Source: Acidobacteriota bacterium (GTDB lineage Bacteria; Acidobacteriota; Terriglobia; 20CM-2-55-15). Taken from it: DNA of 64,000 bases. The DNA lies in assembly GCA_022821145.1 (NCBI GenBank), contig JAJEEE010000051.1, positions 1 through 64,000 of the forward strand, given 5' to 3'. Each line of letters starts with the position of its first letter. The first letter of the stretch is position 1. A model generated the notes under the pieces. That model made no database searches, had not been told where the DNA came from, and saw only the letters and a list, made by a program, of their open reading frames with translations. A program made the translations under genes and the position numbers. Shown piece after piece: positions 24,696 to 33,774 of this stretch.

Positions 24696-26906
24696 ATGAG
24701 CATGCAACAGCACACGCACTCCCATCGAGGGCCTGACGACAGCGGCGAGAGCGGGAACCATGACACGGTTCCGGCCGGGCATGCAGGCGTGGTCTATACC
24801 TGCCCGATGCATCCGTCCGTGCGCCAGACGCAGCCGGGCTCCTGTCCGCTCTGCGGCATGGGGCTGGAGCCTGAGTCCGCTGCGATGGCCGAAGACGGCC
24901 CGAATCCCGAACTGGTGGATTTCACCCGGCGGTTCCGCGTCGGCGCCGTGTTGACGCTTCCGCTCCTGGTCCTCGCGATGGGACCCTTCGTGGGCCTGGG
25001 AGGCGTGCGCGAGGCGTTCGGCGAACGCGGAGCGCTTTGGATCGAGGTGCTGCTGGGCACGCCGGTGGTGCTGTGGTGCGGCCTGCCGTTCCTCGCGCGC
25101 GGCTGGACGTCGTTCCGCACGATGAGCCTCAACATGTTCTCCCTGATCGCGATGGGAGTGATGGCCGCCTGGCTCTACAGCATGGTGGCCGTGCTGGCGC
25201 CGGGCATCTTCCCCGACGGCTTTCGCAACGCGGAGGGCCATGTCGGGGTCTACTTCGAAGCGGCGGCCGTGATCGTGACGCTGGTGCTTCTGGGTCAGCT
25301 CATGGAACTGCGCGCCCGGCAGGGCACCGGCAAGGCGATCCGCGCCCTGCTCGACATGGAGGCCAAGGCCGCGCTCGTCGTCCGCGAGGACGGACGCGAG
25401 GAAGAGATCCCGCTCGACGACGTGCAACTCGGCGACCGGATACGTGTGCGGCCGGGTGCCAAGGTGCCGGTCGATGGCCTAGTCGCCGAAGGCCGCTCCT
25501 TCGTCGACGAGAGCATGATCACGGGTGAGCCGATACCCGTGGAGAAGACGCCGGGCGCTCCACTCACCGGCGCAACCATCAACGGCACCGGCAGCCTGAT
25601 CATGGAGGCGACGCGAGTCGGCGCCGGCACGGTGCTGAGCCAGATCGTCGAGATGGTCGAGAACGCGCAGCGGAGCCGGGCGCCCATCCAGCGTTACGCT
25701 GACCGGGTGGCGGGCCTGTTCGTGCCGGTCGTGATCCTGGTCGCGGCCTGCGCGTTCATCGTCTGGGCGATATGGGGTCCCGCACCCTCGCTCTCCTACG
25801 CGCTGCTGGCGGCAGTCGCGGTCCTGATCATCGCGTGTCCGTGCGCGCTGGGTCTCGCGACCCCCATGTCGATCATGACGGCGACGGGGCGCGGCGCTCA
25901 GATGGGGGTGCTCATCAAGAATGCCGAGTCCCTGGAGCGGTTCGAAACGGTCGACACTCTCATTGTCGACAAGACCGGGACTCTGACGAAGGGGGAGCCC
26001 GAGCTAGTGGGTGTAGTCCCCACAACCGGGCACGACGAGGCCACGGTCCTGAAGCTGGCCGCGACCCTGGAGAGGGGTTCCGAGCACCCGCTGGCCGAGG
26101 CAATCGTCCGGGGAGCCGAGAACCGTGGCGTCACGCTGGCCGAGGCGGCGGACTTCGAAGCGGTGACCGGCAAGGGGGTCAGGGGCACCGTCGACGGCAA
26201 GGCCGTCGCGATCGGCAACTTGAAGCTGGTGCAGGACCTCGGGCTGGAGGTCGAAGCACTGACCGGAACCGCCAACGACCGACGCGACGAGGGCGAGACG
26301 GTGATGTTCGTCACGCTCGACGGGAAGCTCGCCGGGATGGTCAGCGTGGCCGATCCGGTGAAGGACTCCACCCCCGGGGCGCTCGAAGCGCTTCATCGGC
26401 TCGGGTTTCGAATCATCATGGCCACCGGCGACAACGAGCGCACGGCAAGGGCGGTGGCGGCCCGTCTGGGCATCGACGATATCCGCGCCGACGTGCTGCC
26501 GGCGGACAAGGCCCGTATCATCAGGGAGCTGCAGGCGGAGGGCCGGAGAGTCGCGATGGCCGGCGACGGGGTCAATGACGCGCCCGCGCTCGCCCAGGCG
26601 GACATCGGGATCGCCATGGGCACCGGCGCGGACGTGGCCATTGAAAGCGCCGGCGTCACGCTGGTCAAGGGGAACCTCGACGGCATCGTCCGTGCCCGAA
26701 GGCTCGCGCGCGCCACCATGCGCAACATTCGCCAGAACCTGTTTTTCGCCCTGGCCTACAACGCCTCGGGCGTGCCGGTGGCGGCCGGGTTGCTCTTTCC
26801 TTTCTTCGGAATCCTGATTAGCCCCATGTTTGCGGCCTTCGCGATGACCGCATCGTCGATTTCGGTAGTCTTGAACTCTCTGCGCCTGCGCAACCTGCGT
26901 TCCTGA
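24696..26906 (+). CDS. CopB/SilP-type heavy-metal P1B ATPase
   Basis: 736 aa inner-membrane pump. The N terminus is His-rich (HTHSHRG) followed by a YHS-like metal-binding domain [23 protein letters not shown] (conserved CPMHP and CPLCGM). Ion-translocation CPC is at 381-383 ([13 protein letters not shown]). Phosphorylated D425 lies in [10 protein letters not shown], and [10 protein letters not shown] is the actuator loop. [12 protein letters not shown] and [20 protein letters not shown] form the ATP-binding and hinge motifs. Length and His-rich/YHS N terminus match copper/silver exporters of the CopB class. It is followed by a MITE-like element, not by other copper genes. Confidence 0.92.
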
Positions 26907-28470: not shown

Positions 28471-28549
28471 AACCGGCTGACGCGGGAGCGGAGCCCGGGA
28501 CGAGTCCGCAACCTGCTCGTGTTCACGCTTCGAACCAAGAGAGCTTGAA
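28471..28549 (+). pseudogene. remnant of a quinoprotein gene 3-prime end
   Basis: The 60 nt at 28471-28530 match 24393-24452, the end of the PQQ propeller gene, at about 49 positions. They translate as NRLTRERSPGRVRNLLVFTL against NRLTPELSPGQANNLFVFAL. The frame continues RTKRA and stops at the start of the next gene. Nothing of the upstream gene body remains. It looks like a degenerate duplicate, about 4.1 kb downstream of its likely parent. Confidence 0.55.
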
Positions 28550-28968
28550 TGGAAAAACAGCCTCCCGTAGATCGACGCGAGTTCGAAGCGAGGTTGTTCG
28601 CACTCTGTCGGAATCGTGAGATCGTACTGCCGCGGAAGCAGCGCGATCGTCACATCCTGTTTCGCGCGATCGCTCAAACGCTGGCGAGCAAGAGTCCGTA
28701 CTCGGAACGAGAGTTGAATGGTTCGCTTGACGCGTGGGCGGCCTCGGTCGGCGTCGATGCGTCCTTGGACCGTGTTTCGCTGCGCCGCTATCTGGTCGAG
28801 TCGGGATATCTCCGGCGCGACGATGCAGGAACACGATACACGGTCCGCCTCGAAGGAAACGAAGCCGTATCGTTCGATGAGGACGTAGAAGCGCTCGACG
28901 TCGTCGACTTCGTTCGGTCTTCGAAGGCGCGCGCCAACGATCGAAAACGTCAACGGCTGAACCGATAG
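28549..28968 (+). CDS. DUF2087 domain protein, copy 1
   Basis: 139 aa, soluble, no signal. The DUF2087 pattern is LPRKQRDRHILFRAIAQTLA, then YSERELNGSLDAWAASVG (winged-helix-like), then DRVSLRRYLVESGYLRRDDAGTRY (key residues RRxLVExG..RRxxxGxxY). The N-terminal 25 residues (MEKQPPVDRREFEARLFALC) differ from those of copy 2. From LPRKQR onward it is 99/113 identical to copy 2 at 33011-33412. Such domains are seen in small transcriptional regulators. The role is unproven. Confidence 0.75.
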   Translation: MEKQPPVDRREFEARLFALCRNREIVLPRKQRDRHILFRAIAQTLASKSPYSERELNGSLDAWAASVGVDASLDRVSLRRYLVESGYLRRDDAGTRYTVRLEGNEAVSFDEDVEALDVVDFVRSSKARANDRKRQRLNR

Positions 28969-29022
28969 AGCGCGGTGGCCGGCTGATGCCCGTCCCGATC
29001 GATCCGGTCGTCCGTCGAGCCG
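28626..29022 (+). repeat. 397-bp direct repeat, copy 1 (DUF2087 gene plus downstream 54 nt)
   Basis: Colinear without gaps with 33070-33466 at a constant offset of 4,444 bp. It covers most of the DUF2087 gene and the following GATAGAGCGCGGTGGCCGGC segment to GAGCCG. The match ends exactly where the IS21-type end begins (29023). Confidence 0.8.
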
Positions 29023-29426
29023 TGTTGGACGACATGGAGAACTGACCCCCTGGCGACATTGAAAACTGACCCCCCTGCGGAGGGAGGAGTCGGAGAGATG
29101 AATCGAATACAGGATCATGCTCCGTGGGAGAGGAGGCCACGGGGAGAGGCGATGATGAATTCGGAAGAGGTGGAGGCGATGCTCCACCTACATGCGTTGG
29201 GATGGGGATTGAAGCGGATCGCGAGGGAATTTGGATGCAGTCGGAACACGGTGAGGCGGTACTTGGCCGTTGGAGGGTGGGTGGCCTACAGTCGGCCGGC
29301 CCGGGGCGGCAAGCTGGAAGATCGGGACGCGACACGCCTTCCCTCGCATCCGCCGTCGGCCCGTTTCGGAGGTCGATACGGCTGGTGTCAACGTTTCACG
29401 CAATCCATGTCAGTTCGATTCCGTTA
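29023..29426 (+). mobile_element. IS21-family left-end remnant
   Basis: Begins TGTTGGACGAC and carries two tandem 24-nt repeats (29031-29054 and 29055-29078) sharing AACTGACCCCC, the layout of multiple transposase-binding repeats at IS21-family ends. These are followed by the start of an istA-like gene, which is cut off. No istB and no right end are seen, so the element is a truncated, immobile remnant. Its right boundary lies somewhere between about 29310 and 29426. Confidence 0.7.
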
Positions 29427-29427
29427 G
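29098..29427 (+). pseudogene. istA: truncated IS21-type transposase istA
   Basis: An N-terminal fragment: EAMLHLHALGWGLKRIAREFGCSRNTVRRYLAVGG is the HTH_21 DNA-binding domain of IstA (key stretch IAREFGCSRNTVRRYL), then YSRPARGGKLED. After about 29320 the frame runs into unrelated sequence and ends at 29427, where a full IstA would need several hundred more residues including the DDE core. Starts at 29098 (good GGAGAG site) or 29152 are possible. Confidence 0.7.
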
Positions 29428-29807
29428 TAGCTGCACCACCAACAATGAGAGAAATCGTAGATGCACCAGCACTCTTCCGAACCGTTGGAGCACCCATATC
29501 CACCGTACGGGTATTCCGGGCACTCAGGGTCCTCATGTTCCCCCGTAGCCATCCAGCCATACCCACACTGGTAAGACGAGGGGTGACCGCTGCAGCAGGT
29601 GTAAGTGCCGCATACTCCGCCCGGGCAAGTCGAAAGGGAATCGCCGAGAATCCGACATTGGAAGGCCGGCTTGGAGAAAGCAGCCAAACTGGCGAACAAC
29701 CCGAACCCTGCGCATCCCGCCAACTTCAGGAACTCTCGGCGATCATCCGGTGTCTTTCGCCCTCCCCCAGCCTTCAACAACCAGCGTGTCATCCGGTCCA
29801 AGAACAT
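29424..29807 (-). CDS. Tat-signal, 12-cysteine exported protein (MauA-like small subunit candidate)
   Basis: 127 aa. Residues 20-45 form a twin-arginine signal, DRREFLKLAGCAGFGLFASL. The mature part of about 75 residues has 12 cysteines (FQC, TCPGGVC, TCC, QC, EC, GC, ECWC, HCWWC) and several Trp and Tyr, ending CWWCSY. Twelve cysteines equal the six disulfides of methylamine dehydrogenase light chain, also a Tat substrate, but this protein is shorter and I cannot claim homology. ATG at 29807 is chosen because AAGGAG sits 7 nt upstream. An ATG at 29813 would be too close. It lies last in an operon with MauE- and MauD-like genes, whose known role is disulfide formation in MauA. Confidence 0.7.
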   Translation of the reverse strand: MFLDRMTRWLLKAGGGRKTPDDRREFLKLAGCAGFGLFASLAAFSKPAFQCRILGDSLSTCPGGVCGTYTCCSGHPSSYQCGYGWMATGEHEDPECPEYPYGGYGCSNGSEECWCIYDFSHCWWCSY

Positions 29808-29825
29808 TGCCATTCTCCTTGTGCG

Positions 29826-30371
29826 TTATTCGCGGACAGCATCAAAGAACACGCGAACTCCGTCCTCGGTGGGGCCGGCCGTTCCTTTGCGCTTGACAAT
29901 GCCGCCCTGATCGGTCGCTATGAAAAAAGGCGTTCCGGGGATTGTCCATTCCCTGAACAGTAGGCTCGATGCGTCCGAGATTGCCACGACATGGGGAGGA
30001 AATCCTTGCAAGAATTCCCTCGCCGACGACCGATCGCCACGGTGCACAAGCACGACGTCAACGTCGTCGTTGCTGGCCGCAACCATGCTCAGTGGCCCCT
30101 TGACCTGTTCACAAGGCTTGCAATCGATTGCCGTGAAAACGACAACGTTCGGCCTGTCGCGTCCGTGTCCGATCCTGTGTTTCGAGCCATCGATACACTC
30201 GAACTCGATTTGCCATGCTCTTCCGGCAGGAGGCCCGCTCGCGTCGCGGCGTTTCTCCGACTCGATCAATTGTTGTCCAAAGTGCCGGTAAAGAAGAAAC
30301 ACCGCCACAAAGAGAAGAGACACCAGTATCCAGAGCGCCACGTAGCTGAGTAGAAATGGGCTCGCTGTCAT
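29826..30371 (-). CDS. MauD-like membrane-anchored thioredoxin-fold protein
   Basis: 181 aa. One N-terminal membrane anchor (LLSYVALWILVSLLFVAVFL) is followed by a periplasmic thioredoxin fold. NVVVFTAIDCKPCEQVKGPL holds the redox CKPC; PHVVAISDASSLLFREWTIPGTPFFIATD holds the cis-proline loop (IPGTPF) and GGIVKRKGTAG the last strand. MauD proteins have this architecture and are needed for correct disulfides in methylamine dehydrogenase light chain. Its ATG overlaps the MauE-like stop (ATGA), and the 12-cysteine gene follows after 18 nt, which strongly suggests a substrate-enzyme pair. Confidence 0.8.
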   Translation of the reverse strand: MTASPFLLSYVALWILVSLLFVAVFLLYRHFGQQLIESEKRRDASGPPAGRAWQIEFECIDGSKHRIGHGRDRPNVVVFTAIDCKPCEQVKGPLSMVAASNDDVDVVLVHRGDRSSAREFLQGFPPHVVAISDASSLLFREWTIPGTPFFIATDQGGIVKRKGTAGPTEDGVRVFFDAVRE

Positions 30372-30922
30372 CCGGTTCGATTCCTCAAGGACAACAATCG
30401 TTGACGTACGGCAACGACTTCGTGCGTGAGCATCTTGACAGCGAGGAGCCACAGGGCGATGCCTCCTCCTGCCAACAACTCGAACACCGAGACGTCCCGG
30501 ACCCGCTTTACGTCATCGAAGGCAAAGAGTGCCACCAGCGACAGGGCCACCAAGGACATGTCGAAGAAGACCGCTGAGCCGTCGACTGGTCCGCGCCACG
30601 GCCCGAAGCACGAACAGCTCCCGGAGTACCCCCGGCCAATTGCAGTCAACAAAAACACGATGAACACGACGAGCAATAACGCCGTTATCGCAAGTGCCGA
30701 ATTCGCAAAGTCCTCAGTCAATATCATACTTCCCAGCACCAGCTCGAACAGGGCCAAGGGAATTCCAGCGGCGCGAGTGAGGACCGGATGCCTCAAACCT
30801 GCTGCATGTAGAACGTTGACTACTTCCATACGGTTCGCGCGCGTCAGCTTCAGCAACCCGGCCATCAGAAACACGCCGGCAAGTACGAGTCGAATGCTCA
30901 GATTGACGTCAAACACTTCCAT
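30368..30922 (-). CDS. MauE-like integral membrane disulfide-relay protein
   Basis: 184 aa with four membrane helices in the MauE/DoxX layout: VNLSIRLVLAGVFLMAGLLKL, LALFELVLGSMIL, ALAITALLLVVFIVFLLTAI and MSLVALSLVALFAF. The GSCSCFGP motif after TM3 is the C-x-C-F-G signature of MauE, comparable to the redox cysteines of quinone-linked oxidases such as DsbB/VKOR. It likely reoxidises the MauD-like thioredoxin. First gene of the three-gene operon; a 22-nt inverted repeat lies 44 nt upstream. Confidence 0.82.
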   Translation of the reverse strand: MEVFDVNLSIRLVLAGVFLMAGLLKLTRANRMEVVNVLHAAGLRHPVLTRAAGIPLALFELVLGSMILTEDFANSALAITALLLVVFIVFLLTAIGRGYSGSCSCFGPWRGPVDGSAVFFDMSLVALSLVALFAFDDVKRVRDVSVFELLAGGGIALWLLAVKMLTHEVVAVRQRLLSLRNRTG

Positions 30923-30965
30923 TGGCTGATCCGGCCACCCGCGTCCCGCGTAGTCCGAAGTGGAA

Positions 30966-30987
30966 CAGTCGTCCTCCAGGACGACTG
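30966..30987. promoter_or_regulatory. inverted repeat upstream of the MauE-like gene
   Basis: CAGTCGTCCT and AGGACGACTG form 10-nt arms with a 2-nt spacer, 44 nt before the mauE-like ATG and 58 nt after the stop of the preceding gene. It may be an operator, or a terminator-like hairpin for the upstream gene. No clear T-run follows on the transcribed strand. Confidence 0.45.
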
Positions 30988-31044
30988 ACCGCAGTTTCGC
31001 TATCCCTCATTTGTGGTCCATCCGCGGACTTCAAGAGCAGTCGC

Positions 31045-32760
31045 CTATAGCACGACGGCTTCTACGTCCAGTGTCGAGGACGATCTTGGGTCCAGGCGGA
31101 TCCGTTCGGAGAATCGTTCGTATTCGTTCAAGAAGCCTGGGTCTTCCCAATAGGGAAGGCGTACGCTCCGTCCGGCTGCATCAAGCGCAAGAACGGAATA
31201 TTCGCCGGGCGGTACGTTCGCGACTGTGAACAAACCGTAGACGTCCGCCGCGGCCGTGGGAAACCGCAGTAGGGGCCCTCTGCGATTCCGTACCGGAATC
31301 AGGACGACTCGCGCGTTGCGAAGAGGATCACCGTTGGCGCTTCGGGCAATCCCGTCCACCGTCGCTGCGTCATCCGAGACGACAATCGATATTGGACTTC
31401 CGTATCCGGCTGCGGCAAGGCCTTCCCGCAACAAGTCGCGCCCTCCTGACACGATACTGCGCACGTACCAGCCTTGAAGTAATCCGAAAACGCCAACGCT
31501 GTAGAGACCGGGAGGAACGCCCTCGAGATCGAACGCGCCGTCCGATCGAACCGATGATTGACGTGCAAGGAGGTAATCGGTGTCTTGAAGCACGACCCGC
31601 AGGTCCGGGGCCGCAAAACGACTCCCATCCGTACTCGAAACAACGCCCGGAAAATCGCTATTTGCGTTTCGGGCGATCACCTCGAGATCGACGGGCCCGT
31701 CCTCCACAACGAAATACTCCTTGGAAATCGGATTGAGTCTCGTCCAGTCGAGTTCCGGAAATGACTGTTGAATCTGGCGGGAGTATTCGAGAAAGAGCTC
31801 GTATTGGCCCGGCGGAAGTCCGGGAATCGACCATGTTTCGACATCGGTCTGCTCGATGATGGCCTGTTGACGCGTTTCGTGGATCCGGCCTCGCCCGATC
31901 GGACGGATGTGCGCATCGAGGGGGTTATTCTCGGTCCAGTCGAGTGGGACTAACGGATCACGTATCGAAACGCGAACTTCGAAGGCTGTGACTTCCCGGA
32001 AAGTAACGTCGAAACCCGGAAAACTCGCCGCAGTTCGAAGATCGAGCGGAACGGCGTCCTCCGCGAACGGCACACCCGGGTAGTAGTAGGAAATCGCGAG
32101 CGGGCCGTCTGCACTGGATGCGCGCAAGTAGTAACGACGGGCGGCGGCTGTCACCGAGAAGCTGCCGTCAGCCATGGTTTCGGTCGTTCCCCCGGCCAAC
32201 GAGTCGTAGAACACACGTGTCGTCCCGTTGAAATATCCGGCTTCGACCATGGACACTTCGACGGCGGCGACAGGCGCGCCGGACGCGTGGACGACCGACC
32301 CGGAAACCGTCCGTCGTGGCTCCAGCCAAAGCTCGATGTCCGGGCCTTCATGAGGTAGCTGCTCGATCCACGCTCTGACGCGCTGATCCCTCGGAGTATG
32401 GGAGTCTCGGAGACGCAATTCGTATGCTCCTGGCGCCAAATCGAGAAATATGAAGCGTCCGGTGGAGTTGGTGGTCGTCGTACGCCGAGTTTGATCGGTA
32501 TAACTCGCAGCTCGCAATTCGACTTCCACTCCAGGAAACGCCGCGCGCGTTCCGACCTCTCGGACAACACCTTCCATGCGCAACCCCTGCCGCATCGTCA
32601 TCGGTTCTGCCCCCCAAGCCTGGAAAGATTCGCCACCAACTGTCTCGGCCAACACAAACAATGGCACGGGGCTATAGTGCTTGAAGAGTCTGAATCGCGC
32701 AAAGTCATCGCCGATCATCTGCCCGGTCACGGTGCACGCCCCGCCCAAGGACATCCACAT
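31045..32760 (-). CDS. carboxypeptidase-regulatory-like repeat protein
   Basis: 571 aa. Domains recur as in the protein at 20692: MEGVVREVGTRAAFPGVEVEL with STGRFIFLDLAPGAYELRL, RRTVSGSVVHASGAPVAAVE, SDGAFDLEGVPPGLYSVGVF and TVDGIARSANGDPLRNARVV with GLFTVANVPPGEYSVLALD. An export signal is not clear with the start at 32760. An internal ATG at 32718 gives a more plausible leader (about residues 15-45). It is in the same direction as the Mau-like operon, 122 nt upstream, and lies in a less G+C-rich segment. Confidence 0.7.
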   Translation of the reverse strand: MWMSLGGACTVTGQMIGDDFARFRLFKHYSPVPLFVLAETVGGESFQAWGAEPMTMRQGLRMEGVVREVGTRAAFPGVEVELRAASYTDQTRRTTTTNSTGRFIFLDLAPGAYELRLRDSHTPRDQRVRAWIEQLPHEGPDIELWLEPRRTVSGSVVHASGAPVAAVEVSMVEAGYFNGTTRVFYDSLAGGTTETMADGSFSVTAAARRYYLRASSADGPLAISYYYPGVPFAEDAVPLDLRTAASFPGFDVTFREVTAFEVRVSIRDPLVPLDWTENNPLDAHIRPIGRGRIHETRQQAIIEQTDVETWSIPGLPPGQYELFLEYSRQIQQSFPELDWTRLNPISKEYFVVEDGPVDLEVIARNANSDFPGVVSSTDGSRFAAPDLRVVLQDTDYLLARQSSVRSDGAFDLEGVPPGLYSVGVFGLLQGWYVRSIVSGGRDLLREGLAAAGYGSPISIVVSDDAATVDGIARSANGDPLRNARVVLIPVRNRRGPLLRFPTAAADVYGLFTVANVPPGEYSVLALDAAGRSVRLPYWEDPGFLNEYERFSERIRLDPRSSSTLDVEAVVL

Positions 32761-33010
32761 GCTTCCAAGCAGCGATCACGGACCCACTATTCGCCTCCAC
32801 ATCGTCGATCTCGATCAATACGATTGGCATCCGTCCAGGAGCATGTCGGACTTTCGGCGTAAGTCCATGGAATTCAAACACAGGCTCTCTTGGGGCGAAT
32901 TTTAAGTGCATTATTTTCAACAAGATAGATGGGTGGGCCATCGCAAGTCCGACAGGCGCCGAGGCCGTAGCCGGATGTCAGCGCGAGCACATGAGGGGCA
33001 TTGTAGTCGG

Positions 33011-33412
33011 ATGACCACGGATGTCAATGGAGACGCGCGAACGGCGGAAGGATCGGCTCAGGCGGTTGCACTGCCGCGGAAGCAGCGTGAGCGGTCCGTC
33101 CTGTTTCGCGCCATCGCTCAAACGCTTGCGAGCAAGAGTCAATACTCGGAACGAGAATTGAACGGTTCGCTTGACGCATGGGCGGGCTCGATCGGCGTCG
33201 ATGCGTCTTTGGACCGTGTTTCGCTGCGACGCTATCTTGTCGAATCGGGATGTCTCCTGCGCGACGATGCAGGAACACGGCATACGGTCCGCCTCGAAGG
33301 AAACGAAGGCGTATCGTTCGATAAGGACGTAGAAACGCTCGATGTCGTCGACTTCGTTCGGTCGCTGAAGGCGCGCGCCAACGATCGAAAGCTTCAACGG
33401 CTGAACCGATAG
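33011..33412 (+). CDS. DUF2087 domain protein, copy 2
   Basis: 133 aa. From LPRKQR onward it is a diverged copy of the protein at 28549 (14 differences in 113 residues, including C for Y and L for R in LVESGCLLRDD). The N-terminal 20 residues (MTTDVNGDARTAEGSAQAVA) are unrelated to those of copy 1. Both copies keep an open frame, so both may function. GTAGTCGGATG is a weak start context. Confidence 0.72.
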   Translation: MTTDVNGDARTAEGSAQAVALPRKQRERSVLFRAIAQTLASKSQYSERELNGSLDAWAGSIGVDASLDRVSLRRYLVESGCLLRDDAGTRHTVRLEGNEGVSFDKDVETLDVVDFVRSLKARANDRKLQRLNR

Positions 33413-33466
33413 AGCGCGGTGGCCGGCTGATGCCCTTTTCGATCGATCCGGTCGTCCGTTGAGCCG
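33070..33466 (+). repeat. 397-bp direct repeat, copy 2
   Basis: Gap-free partner of 28626-29022. After GAGCCG (33461-33466) the sequence departs from copy 1, where the IS21-type end begins. Confidence 0.8.
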
Positions 33467-33774
33467 GACCCCCGCCGAGTATCAAGTGACGTTCAGCTTC
33501 GACGCGGTCAGACTCCAGGGCCGGGTCCTGGGTTGCGGTGATGGACCCGCGGGCTTCAACGCCGGGCCGTCGCCCGAGGGACGTACCGTCGTCTCGGCCG
33601 CCCACATGGTCAGACGACGGCGAAGGCGGGTTGCCGGACGTGAGACGGGTGTCCGTCCGGGTCTTGACGTCGGAGGATTGCGCATGTAATTTGCTTGTGA
33701 GGCGCAAGCAAGTCTTGCCCTCCTTCCGAGGCCCGCGCTCCGGCGCGGGCTTTCGTGTTTTCGGAGGTTCGCGG
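33413..33774. other. non-coding leader region before the DUF3800 gene
   Basis: No gene is seen. It holds a 7-bp hairpin TTGCTTG/CAAGCAA (33691-33697 and 33705-33711) and the terminator-like hairpin described separately. A short frame at 33459-33689 has only low-complexity arginine-rich content and is not supported. Confidence 0.5.
33731..33761 (+). terminator. Rho-independent terminator-like hairpin
   Basis: GCCCGCGC and GCGCGGGC form a perfect 8-bp stem with a TCCG loop, followed by TTTCGTGTTTT. It sits only 13 nt before the GTG of the DUF3800 gene, so it would end upstream transcription or act as an attenuator in that gene leader. Confidence 0.6.

Follow-up and report, generated by a model that had tools for sequence, protein, structure and literature searches.

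Introduction

What do mauE- and mauD-like genes do in a bacterium whose genome yields no match to methylamine dehydrogenase? The light chain of this enzyme carries six disulfides (PMC7876137); a part for MauE in forming them has been put forward as speculation, and the exact function of MauD has been described as unclear (PMC7794033). Helper genes of this type have been reported apart from the enzyme as well. The decRiPPter study described three candidate RiPP families from Streptomyces with mauE, one of them also with mauD, and with no other mau genes; the precursors of these mauE families hold at least eight cysteines, and the authors inferred that they are modified (PMC7794033).

The locus considered here lies in Acidobacteriota bacterium (assembly GCA_022821145.1, genome 99% complete), on contig JAJEEE010000051.1, of which positions 1-64,000 form the stretch of DNA that was analysed, hereafter the window (64,000 nucleotides). 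An original prediction, made from the letters, had read three of its genes as a stand-alone oxidative-folding operon without methylamine dehydrogenase, made up of a MauE-like membrane protein with CxCFG, a MauD-like thioredoxin with CKPC and a Tat-signal protein of 127 residues with 12 mature cysteines and the C-terminus CWWCSY. All three open reading frames were found where it had placed them, on the minus strand.

Architecture of the three-gene block

The mauE-like gene (30368..30922, minus strand) encodes a membrane protein of 184 aa that belongs to Pfam family PF07291 (E=2e-16, 60.9 bits against a cut-off of 27). The expected motif is present as CSCFG, and its CxC is invariant among relatives. 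The ATG of the mauD-like gene (29826..30371, minus strand), at 30371, overlaps the mauE stop codon (ATGA). Its product of 181 aa has the features of a tethered MauD-like thioredoxin, namely an N-terminal membrane helix, a thioredoxin-type domain with a CxxC motif and a cis-proline, encoded directly 3' of mauE; translation and alignment place the CKPC active-site codons at 30111..30122. Among named families it matches TIGR02661 MauD best (E=4e-7), scoring 29.6 bits where the equivalog cut-off is 188.6 and other MauD proteins from outside mau operons reach 93-120 bits. Because this score falls so far under the cut-off, we class the window thioredoxin, from its sequence, as a distant MauD. Its AlphaFold model, built with three sequences, is of low confidence overall (pLDDT 48), with the N-terminal helix above 90. 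The CxC of MauE, the CxxC of MauD and the cis-proline position are invariant across the aligned mau and non-mau members.

Twelve nucleotides past the mauD-like gene begins the reading frame of the presumptive client, here called the cargo (29424..29813, minus strand), which has 129 codons when counted from the first ATG. An AAGGAG ribosome-binding site (29815..29820, minus strand) lies 7 nt ahead of Met3, which favours a start at Met3 (29807), and the product is thus probably 127 aa long. It opens with RREFLK and a hydrophobic stretch, a predicted Tat signal that scores 16.2 bits with TAT_signal_seq, slightly below the cut-off of 16.7. There are 13 cysteines in total, 12 of them after the signal, in a mature part of about 80 residues that ends in CWWCSY. 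The description of the cargo in the original prediction is therefore borne out, with this narrow shortfall in the Tat score. No other reading frame in the window passed the combined Tat and cysteine-rich filter (351 ORFs of at least 55 aa), and the cargo ranks 1/233 in the window for cysteine fraction. The three genes run in the order E-D-A, as in real mau operons, and the 12-Cys cargo occupies the mauA slot.

A different protein in the mauA slot

Searches of the whole 99%-complete genome returned no match to the heavy chain MauB (PF06433, E<=1e-5) and none to the light chain MauA (PF02975, E<=0.01), in keeping with the claim that the block stands without methylamine dehydrogenase; a nearby mauB, which would have turned it into an ordinary mau cluster, was found neither in the neighbourhood nor elsewhere in the genome. 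The claimed absence of mauG holds for the cluster; the only PF03150 protein of the genome is one di-haem MauG/CCP-family protein on another contig.

The cargo itself has no Pfam match. A sequence search of the PDB gave chance matches only, and searches for direct relatives in 399 genomes of the class, plasmids and about 85,000 species genomes gave chance matches or none. Profile comparison with MauA, which the original prediction had proposed, and with MauA-like and 10-Cys cargos from other loci aligned the Tat signal alone, and no homology with MauA was detected. An alignment with other cargos that looked suggestive by eye was rejected, as it did not rise above shuffles in which the cysteines were held fixed. 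The AlphaFold model of the cargo alone (pLDDT 48) was uninformative. Judged by sequence, the 12-Cys protein is a client of a kind distinct from MauA, and the block differs from a mau operon in that a different protein fills the mauA slot.

The nearest classical counterpart is mauE-mauD-mauA of Paracoccus denitrificans (NC_008688), which the window matches in gene order, in the helper families, in the Tat-type signal and in the 12 cysteines of the mature client. The window departs from it in having a client unrelated to MauA, no adjacent mauB, mauG or amicyanin, and helpers outside the mau clade. In an unrooted tree of MauE and MauD with 12 taxa and long branches, the mau clade received 95.8/95 with the window proteins outside it; the same tree joined the window with locus L080 (G056), another block with a Tat cysteine-rich cargo, at 93.9/91. 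L080, from the same class, thus has the nearest helpers and the same MauE-MauD-Tat Cys-rich order, whereas its cargo is unrelated to that of the window (shuffles, p 0.5) and is followed by an extra membrane gene and a glycosyltransferase.

Recurrence of the pairing

When the window MauD was used as query against 396 genomes of the phylum, three other matches were obtained, all of them E-D-[Tat Cys-rich] blocks, with two tandem 10-Cys proteins (L039), a true MauA with MauB (L040) and a 20-Cys MauA-like protein (L041) as cargos. An HMM was then built from these four MauD sequences, all already known to lie beside such cargos, and in the phylum and class it matched 23 genomes at E<1e-15. A Tat cysteine-rich ORF was present at 22/23 loci under a single filter applied to flanks of about 1.5 kb; at the remaining locus (L086) the contig ends 20 nt past the thioredoxin gene, so that 22/22 assessable loci carry one. 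Independent support is lower than this count, since a single genus contributes 7/23 loci as mau operons and the four sequences in the model cannot be counted as independent. The HMM was built without the nine double-thioredoxin loci and without L079-L081. With the same filter, such ORFs were found at 2/19 loci with weaker thioredoxin matches, 1/30 unrelated control loci and 0/5 MauE-only loci. The expectation that other genomes keep the MauE-MauD-Cys-rich trio is thus upheld for the pairing and fails for the window's own cargo family, which has no homologue: what recurs is the pairing of MauE/MauD with a cargo, rather than this particular cargo.

MauE was set aside as a query for such blocks, its matches in the class being mostly DsbA-like/MauE pairs without a cysteine-rich cargo; the plasmid MauD matches that were inspected belonged to MADH-like operons, and the viral contigs scanned gave no matches.

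Two architectures are found among the recurring loci, one with MauE, a single thioredoxin and a cargo, the other with an anchored double thioredoxin, no MauE and a CC-repeat cargo. In the latter (L082-L090, L104-L109) the double-thioredoxin gene precedes a Tat-type CC-repeat protein with 14-31 cysteines, and several of these loci head what look like exopolysaccharide/polysaccharide gene clusters, the neighbours having been named from reading the sequences. A contig, possibly misbinned, of a metagenome-assembled genome labelled Heimdallarchaeota carries MauE-MauD with two tandem Tat cysteine-rich genes (L078, WAPZ01000105.1), whose products have 17 and 14 cysteines. At L081/L100 (G023) a frameshifted MauE/MauD pair lies beside a 6-Cys Tat protein, which may reflect either decay of the cassette or a mistake in the assembly.

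Diversity of the cargos

Across loci the cargos comprise true MauA, MauA-like, 10-, 14- and 17-Cys and CC-repeat proteins, which are mostly unrelated to one another. Pairwise alignment of the mature parts against Cys-fixed shuffles detected relatedness only among L041, L079 and MauA, and the window cargo matched none of the other blocks' cargos above the shuffles. L041 (G142) and L079 (G331), both of the same class as the window, share its MauE-MauD-Tat Cys-rich order, but their cargos are MauA homologues (hhalign 98.6%), and both have a MauB-like propeller downstream (PF06433, E=3e-5 and 2e-4, respectively). The full order there (L041/L099, L079/L097) is MauE, MauD, MauA-like protein, small membrane protein, membrane protein (DsbD_2-like in L079) and propeller. 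By eye, the alignment keeps both tryptophan positions of the TTQ cofactor in L079 and lacks the second in L041. Because MauA homologues occur here together with a MauB-like propeller downstream, these blocks possibly encode a divergent amine dehydrogenase or one with an altered cofactor.

Genomic setting

The block lies in a GC-poor segment (28500..33500; 58.8% GC, where the window as a whole has 67.4%), and its GC3 of 0.64-0.69 contrasts with 0.84-0.87 in three neighbouring genes. The segment is flanked by the two copies of a 300-bp direct repeat on the plus strand, 90% identical and 4,444 bp apart, the left copy (28626..28925) inside a DUF2087 gene (28549-28968) and the right copy (33070..33369) inside a second DUF2087 gene (32906-33412). 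A short helix-turn-helix ORF (HTH_23/HTH_7; 29059-29427), which runs towards the cargo gene from the opposite strand, is perhaps a transposase remnant. The low GC and GC3, the flanking repeats and this ORF together suggest that the 28.5-33.5 kb block was probably acquired. Among the same-genus and same-family genomes searched, no MauE-type block was found.

Upstream of mauE lies a gene for a CarboxypepD_reg repeat protein of 571 aa (31045..32760, minus strand; PF13620, E=7e-25). It may belong to the module, because a second gene of this kind precedes a broken fragment of MauE on contig C23 of the same genome (L114:5131-7259, G000:C23); the neighbour of that fragment reads as an IS66-type transposase. 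Beyond the segment, 3.5 kb from the block, a heavy-metal P-type ATPase with an HMBD domain (24696-26906) has host-like GC. On the other strand, an ORF at 29124-29963 overlaps the cargo gene.

A probable folding cassette and its alternatives

We consider it likely that the block is an oxidative-folding cassette dedicated to an exported disulfide-rich miniprotein, of a type that appears to be re-used for other clients. The cargo, judging from its signal, would be exported via Tat; outside the cytoplasm its 12 cysteines would be paired, into up to six disulfides, by the membrane-tethered MauD with its CKPC site; and electrons would pass from the client thiols to MauD, on to the CxC of MauE and from there to the respiratory chain, the analogy being with the mauE/mauD pair that accompanies methylamine dehydrogenase. 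An oxidative direction of flow is most likely on this analogy, and a reductive or metal-related role is its main rival. In that rival, MauD and MauE would keep the cargo thiols reduced or assist metal loading of an exported metal-binding protein. It is favoured by the DoxX-like proteins that accompany copper-binding peptides (HvfX family, a weak match in the profile search) and by the nearby heavy-metal ATPase. The bufferin/HvfX copper RiPP systems resemble the window in combining a small cysteine-rich product with a DoxX-like membrane protein (PMC12452194), but the window has a thioredoxin and a Tat signal on the client, and no MNIO (DUF692) enzyme was matched among the neighbouring ORFs scanned. 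Since, in addition, the GC of the ATPase is that of the host and that of the block is not, and the closest MauE/MauD relatives serve the disulfide-bonded MauA, we think this role unlikely.

Much of what ties the block to the mau system could also be read as decay, with mauE and mauD remaining from a methylamine (or aromatic amine) dehydrogenase operon and the cargo a shortened, diverged mauA: the gene order agrees, the cargo and MauA have 12 cysteines and a Tat-type signal in common, and the phylum does contain true mau operons. Yet none of the three genes is broken, the cargo resembles MauA in its signal only, the genome has no heavy chain, and the helpers fall outside the mau clade together with another non-MauA block, which makes decay quite unlikely. 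Even less probable, in our judgement, is a mini-quinoprotein, an electron carrier or small enzyme subunit whose tryptophans (CWC, CWWC) would form a tryptophylquinone-type cofactor. Within the cargo this idea draws on tryptophan content and nothing else, namely on tryptophan adjoining cysteine at the C-terminus; the MauA-like light chains and MauB-like propeller of the sister blocks and the di-haem protein of the genome also speak for it, but the cargo is unrelated to light chains and has neither a propeller partner nor a MauG gene beside it, the MauG/CCP-family protein being encoded on a different contig. Finally, the orphan sequence of the cargo and the overlapping opposite-strand ORF could suggest a non-gene, or a gene placed beside MauE/MauD by chance; this we hold to be extremely improbable, given the ribosome site and 12-nt gap after mauD, a Tat and cysteine profile unique within the window, and the recurrence of the pairing elsewhere.

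The folding-cassette reading accordingly keeps from the original prediction what the recurring MauE/MauD/Tat-Cys-rich block supports, and rests on the pairing rather than on cysteine conservation within, or selection on, the cargo family, for which no homologue was found. The reading is further bounded by the weakly recognised MauD, the low-confidence structure models, the double-thioredoxin loci, which have no MauE, and the published view of the MauE/MauD role in disulfide formation as itself speculated or unclear (PMC7794033). As to the function of the cargo, a weak first guess is an effector or surface protein, small, secreted and stabilised by disulfides, and an antimicrobial or signalling miniprotein is a tentative possibility that we rate below an even chance.

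Significance

The bare idea has a precedent, since mauE/mauD clusters with cysteine-rich precursors were known from decRiPPter. Like the window, those Streptomyces clusters have homologues of mauE/mauD next to a cysteine-rich precursor and lack the rest of the mau genes; they belong to another phylum, and the comparison is with their published description (PMC7794033). As far as the open-licence literature goes, the present analysis adds that the clients bear a Tat-type signal, that the E-D-A slot is conserved, that the pairing holds in a second phylum, where it has been quantified, and that unrelated clients take each other's place.

Because related cassettes carry other clients, machinery of the MauE/MauD type seems to serve a variety of exported proteins rich in disulfides. 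The broader proposal, to which we give even weight for and against, is that it constitutes a general client-swapping folding cassette in Acidobacteria-type bacteria, and probably in other phyla, each copy serving one or two co-encoded, Tat-exported, disulfide-rich proteins that are mutually unrelated; methylamine dehydrogenase would then be merely the best-known client, and the 12-Cys protein of the window would represent a new family of exported disulfide-rich miniprotein. Where mauE and mauD occur in genomes without methylamine dehydrogenase they are easily mis-annotated, since the usual reading ties both genes to methylamine. If the cassette reading is right, MauD-like genes would offer a handle for many unnoticed exported disulfide-rich proteins, and two proteins that together introduce six or more disulfides into a Tat client would make a useful system.
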